A program made the translations under genes and the position numbers. A stretch of DNA of 64,000 nucleotides, from positions 110,141 through 174,140 of the forward strand of contig NZ_KE386873.1 in assembly GCF_000429265.1 (NCBI RefSeq), in the 5' to 3' direction. The notes below the pieces were generated by a model. It searched no databases, was not told the origin of the DNA, and saw only the letters and a list, made by a program, of their open reading frames with translations. Below, one piece after another: positions 11,364-62,424 of the stretch. How positions within the stretch are numbered: the stretch's first letter is position 1; the number at the start of each line of letters is the position of its first letter. This DNA comes from Actinomyces gerencseriae DSM 6844. Its GTDB lineage: Bacteria > Actinomycetota > Actinomycetes > Actinomycetales > Actinomycetaceae.

Positions 11364-12146
11364 TCAGCCGACTCGCACGTAACCGATCGGGGTCTCGTAG
11401 ATGTCGCGGTAGACGACGCCGGTGGACTCCGTGCCGGCATCGATCATCTTGCCGTCACCGGCGTAGATGCCCACGTGGTGGCCGAAGTAGACGATGTCGC
11501 CGGGCTGGGCCTCAGCGGCGGAGACGAGCCTGCCCGCCGAGCCCTGCGCCTGGGCGGTACGCGGAAGAGAGATGCCCATCTGCGCGTAGACGTACTGGAC
11601 GAGGCCCGAGCAGTCGAAGGCGTCCGGCCCCGCGGCGCCGGAGACGTAGGGCCGACCGACGTACTGCATGGCGATCGCCACAGCGCCCCCGGCGTTGGAT
11701 GCGGGTGCCGGGGCGGGGTTCGACGTGGAGCGCCCGGAATCGGCCGCGTTCTCCGTGGCCGAAGCGTTCGTGGCGGTGGTGGAGTTGGAGGCCGACTCGT
11801 CGGTGCTGGTGTTGGCCTGCGGTGCGGGCTGCTCGACGACGGGAGCCTCGGCGGTCACGTCGGCAGCGACGTCGGCGGCCTCGGTGGAGGCGTCCGGAGA
11901 GACGTGAACCGCGGCATTAGTGGATACCGCCGCACGAGCATTGGCCGCGAGCGTGCCAACACCGGCCTCCTTCAAGGAGCCGGCGGAGGCCTCGGCCTCC
12001 GTGCTCCCGGCCGCGTGAGCGCCCGAGGCGATCATCGTCAGCGCGAGACCCGAGGAAGCGGCAGCGGCGAGGCTGCGGCGCGCCACCGGGGTGACGGACG
12101 TGACGGGACGGGCATCCTTGCGATGACGAGCCTTGGTGCTGGACAT
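11364..12146 (-). CDS. Secreted NlpC/P60 peptidoglycan hydrolase (first copy)
   Basis: Probable D,L-endopeptidase acting on peptidoglycan stem peptides outside the cell (260 aa). A signal peptide (residues 1-45) runs RRSLAAAASSGLALTMIASG then HAAG. A Ser/Thr/Ala-rich linker fills 46-150. The C-terminal NlpC/P60 domain (about 152-260) has the catalytic Cys179 in FDCSGLVQYVY and His224 in GHHVGIYAGDG. AAGGAG lies 6 nt before the ATG. The leader contains a c-di-AMP riboswitch (12160-12292), so expression should fall or rise with that second messenger. It is paralogous to the next upstream gene, with its own leader and no shared operon. Confidence 0.93.
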   Translation of the reverse strand: MSSTKARHRKDARPVTSVTPVARRSLAAAASSGLALTMIASGAHAAGSTEAEASAGSLKEAGVGTLAANARAAVSTNAAVHVSPDASTEAADVAADVTAEAPVVEQPAPQANTSTDESASNSTTATNASATENAADSGRSTSNPAPAPASNAGGAVAIAMQYVGRPYVSGAAGPDAFDCSGLVQYVYAQMGISLPRTAQAQGSAGRLVSAAEAQPGDIVYFGHHVGIYAGDGKMIDAGTESTGVVYRDIYETPIGYVRVG

Positions 12147-12159
12147 TTCTCTCCTTGTT

Positions 12160-12292
12160 GAGCTGCCGAGGTGAGCTGTCGGGTTCGGACTGGAGAAGCC
12201 CGGCCTGCTCTCGCAGACTTCACCCCTGAGGTTCGCGGAGCGCAGCGCACCGCGATCCATTCTGTGGTTCCCCCGTTCCTGCCATAGCTTGG
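12160..12292 (-). promoter_or_regulatory. c-di-AMP riboswitch (ydaO/yuaA type), first copy
   Basis: Read on the minus strand, the leader has the conserved ydaO blocks in order: AACGGGGGAACCAC, then AGGGGTGAAG, then GCGAGAGCAGGCCGG, then CCGAACCCGACAGCTCACCT. This class binds cyclic di-AMP. In actinobacteria it typically controls cell-wall hydrolase genes, as here, where an NlpC/P60 gene follows 14 nt downstream. Confidence 0.92.
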
Positions 12293-12463
12293 GAAAGGAG
12301 CCCCAGTTCGAGCGGCAGGACGAAGCCTCGAACCGAGGATCACGAGGAGGGCCTCGCAACAGGGGCAACGGTACCCGAGGGAAGCCCGGCGTGTCACGGC
12401 CAGATCACGCACACGACTGTGGGAGATCACACTTTTGTTTCGTGCGCCTCCTCCCCCAGGATG

Positions 12464-13321: not shown

Positions 13322-13337
13322 TGAATTTTCTCCTGAA

Positions 13338-13475
13338 GAGCCGACGGAGTTAGCTGTCGGGTTCGGGCGGGAGACGCCCGGCCCGCTTGCGCGGGCTTCA
13401 CCCCAAGGCTCGGGCCAACCGCGTGGGCGGGACCCGAGCCGGAGAAAGTGGTTCCCCCGGGCCTGCCGATGGTGT
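13338..13475 (-). promoter_or_regulatory. c-di-AMP riboswitch (ydaO/yuaA type), second copy
   Basis: On the minus strand the conserved blocks appear in order: CCCGGGGGAACCAC, then TTGGGGTGAAGC, then GCGCAAGCGGGCCGGGC, then CCGAACCCGACAGCTAACTC. The variable stem between the first two blocks differs from the first copy, so this is not a recent duplication. The NlpC/P60 start codon is 16 nt further on. Confidence 0.92.
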
Positions 13476-13936
13476 CTTGAGTACGATCACGGAAGAGGCG
13501 AGGCACCGGCAGGCTTAGGCTCTGCCCGCCTCTCCACAGCCGACTTCATCGACTGCGCCAATTACGTTAGCGGACTTTTACCTCCCGTGTGAAGCCGGTG
13601 GACGCCGGACCTCTGTGGGATCACCCACGCGCCCGGGCCCCTCGTCACAGCAGCCGCGCCACCCGCCGCGGACCCGGGAAACTCGGGGAAAACGACGTCG
13701 GTACCGCCCGGAACCCGTCGTCGTCGAGGCGCCTCCGCGCACCCCGCCGGAGGAGGGGCGGAGGCGGGAGGCGCCGAGCCCGAGCGGGAAGGCCGATGGA
13801 ACGGGGAAGGGGAGCGAGTCCCGTCGGGCGAGGGCGCGACGGCTCATCGCAGTGAGACGCGACGGACGACCGTGGCAGTCCCCGGCGGAGCTCATCGGGC
13901 GCGGGCGAGATCGGACGGGACTCGGCCCGCATGCGC
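13476..13936. other. Intergenic region holding the riboswitch promoter
   Basis: No gene is supported; the open frames are compositional. An AT-richer patch (about 13555-13585, reading GGTAAAAGTCCGCTAACGTA on the minus strand) is the most likely promoter for the riboswitch and NlpC/P60 gene. The rest (13600-13936) is GC-rich with no recognised signal. Confidence 0.4.
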
Positions 13937-16785: not shown

Positions 16786-16943
16786 CGTCGAGATCGGTTC
16801 GGTTCCGTGCCGAGATCGGTCGAGTTCCGCGTCGAGATCGGTTCGACGGCGGCGCGCCCGGGGGCCGGGGCCGCGAGGCAGGCATTTCGGCGCGAGTCCG
16901 ACGGCGGCGTCGTCGGACTCGCGCCGAAATGTCGACCTCGACG
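16786..16943 (-). repeat. Composite intergenic repeat, copy b (full, inverted)
   Basis: Three iterons in the GAGATCGG orientation (from 16786) are followed by a linker (16844-16876) and a long palindrome: GGCATTTCGGCGCGAGTCCG, then ACGGCGGCGTCG, then TCGGACTCGCGCCGAAATGT. The order is the reverse of copies a, d, g and i. Confidence 0.8.
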
Positions 16944-17022: not shown

Positions 17023-17184
17023 GCGGGGTCGTACCCGACGCCGCACGGTCGTACCCTAAAGCCCCCCTACAGTACGACCCGGCGCCGCAGCGTACGACCG
17101 CGCGAGCCCGGGTACGACCGCGCGAGCCCGGGTACGACCGGCCCGAGGCAACGGCCGCCGGCCCCGTCGGACGTACGACCGCAC
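17023..17184. repeat. Dyad array of 12-bp GTACGACCGCGC half-sites, copy 1
   Basis: Two left half-sites (17023-17034, 17043-17054) are inverted relative to right half-sites at 17072-17083, 17092-17103, 17112-17123 and 17132-17143. All neighbours are spaced by 20 bp, with 8-bp spacers, and the centre is 17 bp. A further half-site lies at 17173-17184, 41 bp on. The consensus half-site is GTACGACCGCGC. The same architecture occurs at 61365-61485. Confidence 0.85.
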
Positions 17185-17190
17185 GAGCAA

Positions 17191-17397
17191 CGGCACCACC
17201 GCACAACCCTCCCACCGCACCAGACCCCACCCGACCCATCACCCCCACACCCCGACCACGGCCACCCACCCCGACCGCAAGCCGCACAGCACGTCCGTCC
17301 GACAACCACCACCCACCACCTGCCCCGCCACGAACCACCCCACCGCACAACCACGACAACGAACCGAACTCGAGCCGGAACCGAACCGAACTCGACG
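17191..17397. repeat. 207-bp A/C-strand repeat, copy 1
   Basis: Nearly identical (three or four mismatches seen) to 31563-31769, in the same orientation. The + strand is almost only A and C over its first 150 bp (CACCACCGCACAACCCTCCC, then ACCCCACCCGACCC) and it ends in an iteron-like CGAACTCGAGCCGGAACCG. Frames on the minus strand are Gly/Val/Arg/Trp-rich and look non-coding. Confidence 0.9.
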
Positions 17398-60722: not shown

Positions 60723-61253
60723 ATGACCATCGCCACCCTGCGCTCCGCCCTGCCCGACTGGGCCAAGGACCTGTCGCTCAACCTGTCCACCCTCACCCGC
60801 GCCACCACGCTGACCGAGCAGCAGCGGTGGGGCACGTTCCTGGCCGCGGCCGCCGCCACCCGTCACGAGTCAGTCCTCGTGCAGGTCTCCGAGGAGGCCC
60901 GGAAGCACCTGAGCGATGAGGCCCGATCCGCCGCGCTCGGCGCCGCCTCGATCATGGCGATGAACAATGTCGCCTACCGCACGCGCCACTTCCTCGGCGG
61001 CGACTACGACAACGAGCGCGTGGGCCTGCGCATGAACATCATCGGCACCTCCGGCGGCGTGGAGAAGGTCGACTTCGAGCTGTGGATCCTGGCGGTGTCC
61101 ACCATCAACGGCTGCGAGAAGTGCGTGACCGCCCACGAGGCCACGGCGCGCGCCGAAGGGCTGAGCACCGAGCAGATCTGGGAGGTCGTACGCATCGCCG
61201 CCACCCTTCAGGGCGTCGCCCAGGCGGTGGCGGTCGTCGAGACGCTTGACTGA
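60723..61253 (+). CDS. ahpD: Alkylhydroperoxidase AhpD
   Basis: Thiol reductant adaptor that passes electrons to AhpC (176 aa). The active site is Cys131 and Cys134 in [12 protein letters not shown] with His138, and the proton-relay Glu119 is in FELWILAV; each is one position later than in the mycobacterial enzyme. The family block [19 protein letters not shown] is complete. GACGAGGA lies just before the ATG. It is in an operon with ahpC, together forming an NADH-linked peroxide defence with dihydrolipoamide components encoded elsewhere. A symmetric half-site array begins 112 nt after its stop. Confidence 0.96.
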
Positions 61254-61364: not shown

Positions 61365-61485
61365 GCGCGGTCGTACGTGAATGCGCCCGGTCGTACCAGA
61401 CGCCGCGCGGTCGTACCTTAGAGGAGCTCTAAGGTACGGCCGCGCGGTTTGATGTACGACCGCGCGGGCTCATGTACGACCGCGC
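61365..61485. repeat. Symmetric dyad array of six 12-bp half-sites, copy 2
   Basis: Left half-sites GCGCGGTCGTAC lie at 61365-61376, 61385-61396 and 61405-61416. Right half-sites GTACGACCGCGC lie at 61434-61445, 61454-61465 and 61474-61485. All spacers are 8 bp (20-bp period) and the 17-bp centre CTTAGAGGAGCTCTAAG is itself a palindrome. Every left site mirrors a right site about position 61425. The remaining 61254-61734 holds no gene. Confidence 0.93.
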
Positions 61486-61734: not shown

Positions 61735-62247
61735 TCAGTCGTCCGGGTCGACGTCGATAGCGCCCTGAACGTCGTTGAACAGCAGGTTGGCGATCTCCGA
61801 CTGGACCATCTCGACCTCGGGCACGTCGGTGAGCTCCAGCGGGTCGTCCGAGCTCGTCTGCAGCCACAGGGTGCCGCACCGGAAGACCCGGTCGGTCAGG
61901 TCCTGGTCGTGCTGGACGTCGCTGATGCGGGTCAGGGGCAGGTCATGCCCCGTCTTGTTGAACACGCCCGATCTGGTGATGACCCGCTTGGACGTCACGG
62001 TGTAGCTCGTGGTCACCCACCGCACCCACGGCACCACGAGCAGCGGCACGCTCGCGACCAGCACCACCGCCCAGATGCCGATCAAGCCCCAGGGATTCCA
62101 GGAGCCGGGGACCAGCACCGAGCAGACGATGCCGAGTGCGAGCAGCACGATCTCGAGAATGATCCGCCACAGGAGGACCTTGATATGAGTATGCATGTGC
62201 CGCACCACGACCTCGTCGCGGCTGAGCAGCTTCTTCGACAGAGTCAT
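61735..62247 (-). CDS. PH-domain (DUF304-type) membrane protein
   Basis: Membrane protein of 170 aa. After a charged start (LSRDEVVVRHMHTHIKVLLW) there are two helices (about 27-50 and 56-78). A bacterial PH domain follows with the characteristic TSYTVTSKRVITRSGVFNKT and DLPLTRISDVQHDQDLTDRV motifs. The protein ends in an acidic tail. The role is unknown; relatives lie in the cytoplasmic membrane with the PH part inside. CACGAT lies 6 nt before the ATG, which fits the leaderless pattern, and no ribosome site is present. Confidence 0.85.
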   Translation of the reverse strand: MTLSKKLLSRDEVVVRHMHTHIKVLLWRIILEIVLLALGIVCSVLVPGSWNPWGLIGIWAVVLVASVPLLVVPWVRWVTTSYTVTSKRVITRSGVFNKTGHDLPLTRISDVQHDQDLTDRVFRCGTLWLQTSSDDPLELTDVPEVEMVQSEIANLLFNDVQGAIDVDPDD

Positions 62248-62424
62248 GAGCACATCGTGCCATGCCTTCGCGGCCCGCACGGGCCCGTGACGGTCTCCCC
62301 ATCCCCACGGTCGCGCAGGTCTCCCGAGCCGGGCGGCCGGCGCCCGTTCCCACTGCCCACGCCGCCCGGACCACGGGGCGCGCCCGCCGCCGCGCGGTCC
62401 GCGACACTCAGCACCGCGCGATTG

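Follow-up and report, generated by a model that had tools for sequence, protein, structure and literature searches.

Among described systems, the closest to the DNA considered here are the REP/BIME repeats, the ISL3-family MITEs and the chromosomal sites of the Noc and SlmA proteins. ISL3-type ends accompanied by 8-bp target duplications are a mark of transposition. The Noc and SlmA sites are palindromic and are not known to form 20-bp arrays of the kind described below. Noc sites (NBS) number about 70 and SlmA sites (SBS) 24-52, and both are underrepresented in Ter regions (PMC4726725). REPs are defined by an unpaired GTAG or CGTC tag at one end and a unit of 20-40 bp, with CGTC-type REPs reported also without a dedicated transposase (PMC3733652), and known REPs bind proteins (PMC2817692). 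By term search, 'Actino' has no occurrence in PMC3733652 and 'Actinobacteria' none in PMC2817692; judged by their listings, none of the openly licensed PubMed Central papers that our searches brought up describes, for Actinomyces or Isoptericola, a REP-like family whose arms are mirror-symmetric and whose register is strictly two turns.

The window, by which we mean the whole 64,000-nucleotide stretch of Actinomyces gerencseriae DNA that was analysed, contains two arrays of one family, whose coordinates are collected in the table below. For the first of them (array 1), the initial annotation had described six identical sites at 20-bp steps, mirrored about position 61425 around a palindromic centre of 17 bp. 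The coordinates bear out the layout, with 8-bp spacers between the 12-bp sites; the sites are however only nearly identical, as four of the six match GTACGACCGCGC exactly and those starting at 61385 and 61434 depart from it by one mismatch each. Similarly, the centre is palindromic in its arms CTTAGAG and CTCTAAG but not in its middle 3 bp (GAG); the common form in this genome is CTTAGAG-NNN-CTCTAAG. Loose matches to the site (up to two mismatches) number 31 in the window against 23.6 +/- 5.6 in shuffled sequences, a value reached in 12 of 100 shuffles: the site count alone is thus unremarkable, but the 20-bp phasing is not chance. Array 1 sits between convergent genes, a bacterial PH-domain gene on one side and on the other a CMD-domain gene, which we take to be AhpD-like and which comes after an AhpC-family gene.

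Features of the window arrays and the genes next to array 1 (positions within the window)
Feature	Position	Strand	Description
Array 1	61365..61485	.	3 inverted and 3 direct 12-bp sites, 20-bp period, dyad centre 61425
Array 1 site	61365..61376	-	exact match to GTACGACCGCGC
Array 1 site	61385..61396	-	1 mismatch to GTACGACCGCGC
Array 1 inner site	61405..61416	-	exact match to GTACGACCGCGC
Array 1 17-bp centre	61417..61433	.	CTTAGAG-GAG-CTCTAAG
Array 1 inner site	61434..61445	+	1 mismatch to GTACGACCGCGC
Array 1 site	61454..61465	+	exact match to GTACGACCGCGC
Array 1 site	61474..61485	+	exact match to GTACGACCGCGC
Array 2, same family	17027..17200	.	2 inverted and 6 direct units, centre CCTAAAGCCCCCCTACA
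Left neighbour gene of array 1	60723..61253	+	CMD domain PF02627; 3' end towards array 1
Right neighbour gene of array 1	61735..62280	-	bacterial PH domain PF03703; 3' end towards array 1

The units of array 2 follow one another at 20 bp, except for one step of 41 bp, and its outermost unit is degenerate. Together with its flanks this array (around 17047) shows 84% identity over 710 bp to the start of another contig (C10, in L113), which points to a duplication of the array along with its flanks. A long near-perfect inverted repeat, CATTTCGGCGCGAGTCCGAC...GTCGGACTCGCGCCGAAATG, was seen by eye near array 2 (window ~16885-16932). Elsewhere in the window, the minus strand carries a pair of c-di-AMP (ydaO/yuaA) riboswitches (12146-12312 and 13324-13493), separated by about 1 kb.

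A survey of the 3.42-Mb draft genome (28 contigs) of the Actinomyces containing the window revealed that GTACGACCG, with up to one mismatch, forms 135+122 tandem pairs spaced by exactly 20 bp, against 0+0 for a reversed control pattern; dyad centres (up to two mismatches) number 59, against 4 with the control pattern. We read 56 of these 59 hits as arrays, 50 among the hits listed and six in fetched stretches; the other three are unlocated, and the control pattern gives four by chance. All 56 arrays have GGTCGTAC-17 bp-GTACGACC in common, as imposed by the search criterion, and carry from 1 to 11 units per arm. The register is tight: among 341 unit-to-unit steps 312 measure 20 bp, with 22 of 21 bp, three of 41 bp and two each of 19 and 22 bp. 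None of the 56 arrays overlaps a gene predicted by our home-made codon-usage script trained on Actinomyces, and their distance to genes ranges from 43 bp to more than 1 kb. Mapped against gene ends, as the initial annotation had proposed, array 1 does lie between convergent genes but the family in its own genome is unbiased (11 convergent, 9 divergent, 30 tandem and 6 undetermined), and a general placement at promoters or terminators was rejected for this genome. Array 1 belongs to an Actinomyces repeat family that is dispersed, intergenic and non-coding and has about 56 copies here.

The working unit is a ~15-bp motif, RS-GTACGACC-NCGCG, which recurs at 20-bp intervals along two arms that mirror each other about the dyad. 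In 312 units, positions 1-8, the core GTACGACC, carry 1.65-2.0 bits each, values that are inflated because detection required a near match there. Positions 11 and 13, which lie in the NCGCG segment (9-13) unused for detection, carry 1.69 and 1.54 bits, and positions 14-18 only 0.04-0.34 bits. There are 203 distinct spacers, with identical ones occurring in local runs, so that units are gained by tandem duplication. At an array locus of the A. oris group one strain is short by exactly 20 bp. The core is hence conserved while spacers and unit numbers drift.

Mirrored arrays are also present in the named relatives Actinomyces oris, A. naeslundii, A. johnsonii, A. massiliensis and oral taxon 170. 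An order-wide scan of 396 genomes for the exact dyad, allowing any centre length of 2-32 bp, produced matches in 35, 31 of which have one or two, mostly with unrelated centres; the most hits come from the genome of the window itself (45), Isoptericola chiayiensis (28), I. sediminis (14) and an A. oris genome (6). Within the inspected part of 37 genome-contig stretches, the mirrored layout is found only in Actinomyces and Isoptericola, the Streptomyces and other unrelated stretches looking like simple GTACGACC runs or chance pairs. The Isoptericola form, with 28 distinct copies in three genomes, is a compact palindrome with units at -20, 0, +15 and +35; its centre gap measures 7 bp and its spacers 12 bp. 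Both genera thus use 20-bp units, with the inner sites 25 bp apart from start to start in Actinomyces and 15 bp in Isoptericola; their centre gaps (17 versus 7 bp) differ by 10 bp, or about one helical turn. Single hairpins with a CTAAGGTACGACC-like arm were noticed in two A. oris-type genomes (G010, loci L018 and L155; G023, loci L015, L022 and L029) and, as far as their sequences tell, stand in form between the arrays and the palindrome of Isoptericola.

The Isoptericola copies allow a comparison of orthologous elements. Across eight pairs, two of which rest on one-sided flank matches, changes affect 9 of 256 core positions, 70 of 248 spacer positions and 99 of 192 outer flank positions (core versus spacer p=3e-15); in the six pairs anchored on both sides the corresponding figures are 5/192, 51/186 and 74/144 (p=1e-12). 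The paucity of changes in the core relative to the spacers indicates that the core is under purifying selection. Taken together, the selected core, the 20-bp register and the 10-bp difference of the centre between the genera fit a cooperative protein on one face of the DNA. Accounting for these patterns, we consider it probable that the arrays belong to a REP/MITE-like dispersed family, spread in part by transposons, which carries cooperative binding arrays for a putative protein. Each unit would be the footprint of a sequence-specific protein, which might assemble cooperatively outward from the dyad along one helix face at about two turns per unit; more speculatively still, the resulting nucleoprotein sites, lying mostly in the origin half, could help to organise or segregate the chromosome or to insulate transcription. 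An assembly site for a cooperative binder had already been proposed in the initial annotation, and that part of it gains from the recurrence of spacing and dyad in 56 arrays and in relatives, the selected core and a geometry that is apparently compatible with one-face binding.

The initial annotation had alternatively suggested a transposon-like end. The array itself is no such end, but some copies travel as cargo within elements that have ends. A left flank starting with GGYYCTTCGTGT is common to many arrays, and ISL3 transposases (PF01610) have matches in eight of 11 genomes searched, the five matches in the genome of the window being all partial or with a stop. Of 20 fetched ISL3 loci we examined 12: nine have a near-identical GGCTCTTCG end, a tenth has a GGCTCTTCC end, and in the two loci from Isoptericola the end is different or lacking. 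Using a loose criterion, candidate ISL3-type ends are found on both sides of seven of the 56 arrays. One of these elements, of 489 bp, is bounded by an 8-bp target duplication, CTGAAACT, matching at 8/8 positions, and two of 477 and 608 bp by duplications matching at 7/8 each; the remaining four (5/8, 3/8, 1/8 and 1/8) are unconvincing. In A. oris, a 287-bp array element likewise has ISL3-type ends and an 8-bp duplication (7/8, by eye). The ends and duplications of these three copies and the one in A. oris imply that some arrays are the cargo of non-autonomous elements. Around array 1 we found neither an ISL3-type end pair nor a target duplication.

These elements raise the possibility that the array is purely selfish DNA, an internal part (such as additional repeats bound by the transposase) of a non-autonomous ISL3-type element, without use to the host, an idea to which the presence/absence of copies between species and the way 20-bp units are gained and lost locally in tandem also lend themselves. 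The spacing is far from singular, given 56 arrays here and others in relatives; yet an array is present at none of the 19 loci orthologous to that of array 1 that were read in relatives, which have at most two isolated near-units, and this copy is therefore dispensable in the genus. What makes the selfish reading rather unlikely is that the exact GTACGACC unit occurs in none of the 12 ISL3 loci examined, and that the core is conserved in the Isoptericola orthologues, where ISL3-type ends around the elements are at background level (22 loose matches in 77 kb) and where a genome carrying 13 copies gave no match to ISL3 transposases.

Other routes of spread were also considered. Mobilisation of the RAYT/REPIN kind was rejected, with no Y1 transposase (PF01797) match in any of 15 genomes and matches in five of 14 control genomes by the same search. 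A plasmid or phage origin was set aside too: screening 72,556 plasmid and 50,697 phage records with array 1 gave no match. Viral contigs have no exact tandem pairs, and their five exact dyads have unrelated centres with no more units within ~80 bases on either side. Comparison of array-locus flanks between the genome of the window and A. massiliensis or A. oris gave mostly 90-98% identity, with lower segments also present; the ahpC-ahpD region of A. massiliensis is 84% identical to that of the former. This suggests that array regions have been exchanged between species. In the A. oris group, one intergenic array locus (L051:5150-5900 and its orthologues) is nearly identical across several named species, probably as a result of recent exchange.

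A further alternative is that the dyad is kept for base pairing in RNA, with transcribed arrays or palindromes acting in a REP-like manner as bidirectional terminators or stabilisers of mRNA 3' ends. The Isoptericola form speaks for it: its spacers covary, with 60 cells changed on both sides versus 23.8 in shuffles, and arm-to-arm identity is 9.82/12 versus 8.04. Its copies also lie mostly beside gene 3' ends: in the 23 usable ones of 28, the flanking genes are convergent in 11, divergent in one and tandem in 11, the five copies left out being one at a contig edge and four that overlap genes predicted with the Actinomyces-trained caller, each by more than 400 bp. Such covariation may reflect pairing or the correction of quasi-palindromes. 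At array 1, besides the convergent genes, the RNA fold is very strong (z -12.9 and -11.2), as expected of any mirrored array; terminator scoring of this array gave, on the plus strand, a match that resembles a terminator and has a T-rich tail (2 overlapping matches versus 0.1 in shuffles), and a GC-rich hairpin was seen by eye at the same place in nine of the 10 relatives' gaps inspected. At gathering cut-offs Rfam has no family on the window arrays or in seven further loci.

In the genome of the window, on the other hand, the arms do not covary. Facing first spacers are identical at 1.79 of 7 positions versus 2.57 +/- 0.18 when the arms of different arrays are exchanged (n=53), so that complementarity is below chance; numbers of units in the left and right arm are uncorrelated (r=0.10, 54 arrays), and the centre halves lack within-array covariation (5.06 versus 5.05, n=47). 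With a conserved core, unconserved spacers and arms that match no better than chance, the arrays resemble DNA-protein sites more than paired RNA; the non-complementary arms, in particular, favour recognition of each unit in duplex DNA. The deficit of complementarity itself may stem from avoidance of long perfect palindromes. The highly variable distance to genes and the even balance of convergent and divergent neighbours likewise speak against the RNA hairpin, which also leaves the invariant core, the 20-bp register and the one-turn change of the centre unexplained. Accordingly, we regard it as unlikely to be the basis of the family.

We also mapped the arrays against the origin, as had been envisaged in the initial annotation. 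The parS cluster and the only ParB match in the genome of the window lie at C3:150-159 kb, which places the origin there. Contigs were ordered by synteny to a single-contig genome (G007, parS at 1192-1198 kb) using 69 sampled 20-kb stretches and one of 11 kb; the placement of C10 and of parts of C3, C5 and C13 is ambiguous, and C8, C12 and C15 have one anchor each. The 44.5% of the genome at the greatest distance from parS, a zone drawn after the map was seen, contains just three of the 56 arrays (p=7.6e-11); with all three unlocated hits placed there, the count is 6 of 59 (p=1e-8). Four contigs totalling 602 kb, C7, C8 and C12 that map near the terminus and C15 elsewhere in the far part, have none of the arrays read against 9.9 expected. 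At the other extreme, a 152-kb interval centred 2 kb from the parS cluster is array-free although about seven arrays would be expected. In an A. massiliensis genome (G061), three of four arrays share a contig with parB, at distances of 76, 256 and 265 kb, and looser matches in G007 fall at seven places, four of them within 175 kb of parS and three farther away.

The arrays are biased to the origin half, but a 22-bp tandem repeat (GAGATCGGTCGAGTTCCG-like) shares part of this bias: in the sampled stretches this half has a lower coding density and the repeat is commoner there. A repeat-tolerant zone would thus explain part of the distribution, and the origin bias of the arrays may reflect tolerance of repeats. 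The same 22-bp repeat is often found within 800 bp of arrays (e.g. in L102, L106, L113 and at window ~16800). A search for a Noc-like ParB paralogue found none in the genome of the window, its one ParB_N match lying in the parS cluster; in 17 genomes, only one (G029) has a ParB_N match outside the main ParB gene. It is very doubtful, then, that the arrays are nucleoid-occlusion-like or origin-domain sites which a host protein reads as positional marks, as Noc and SlmA do theirs: the sparse far zone, the array-free interval at parS and the placement in A. massiliensis would agree with this, but the ParB paralogue is missing, the number of arrays drops from 56 to 4 in the related A. massiliensis genome and the bias is shared with the 22-bp repeat.

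Returning to the cooperative binding arrays of a partly transposon-spread family, which we prefer, a chromosome-organising role is possible over and above the register, conservation, transposon carriage of some copies and origin bias seen in the data. Its furthest extension, that a binding-site array spread by transposons, dense to either side of the origin, missing right next to it and almost missing towards the terminus, became a chromosome-wide positional mark for a putative actinobacterial protein in the control of segregation or division, is very doubtful. A protein that binds the arrays, if there is one, would be a new nucleoid factor with sequence specificity, for which the genome map of sites is already at hand; comparison between related species could test its role, given their 4 versus 56 arrays and the origin bias.

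Like the REP/BIME repeats, the arrays are extragenic palindromes in high copy that form clusters of regularly spaced inverted units, and the Isoptericola form adds the 3'-end location and the compensatory changes. Unlike REPs, the consensus and the arrays inspected lack a GTAG or CGTC tag, no RAYT was found, and in place of a 20-40 bp unit there are arrays of 67 to more than 200 bp with a fixed 20-bp register and mirror-symmetric arms; the parallel is therefore one of anatomy, with tag, size and RAYT setting the two apart. Some copies resemble ISL3-family MITEs in their GGYTCTTCGTGT-type ends, 8-bp target duplications and the presence of ISL3 transposase genes, mostly broken, in the genome; however, the dyad-array cargo is missing from the IS copies examined, and most arrays, including array 1, show no such end pair. 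With the Noc and SlmA sites, finally, the arrays share their occurrence as tens of sequence-specific sites depleted towards the terminus, a bias in which the 22-bp repeat has a part, but unlike the case of Noc their genome is without a Noc-type ParB paralogue, and this parallel is one of distribution only.
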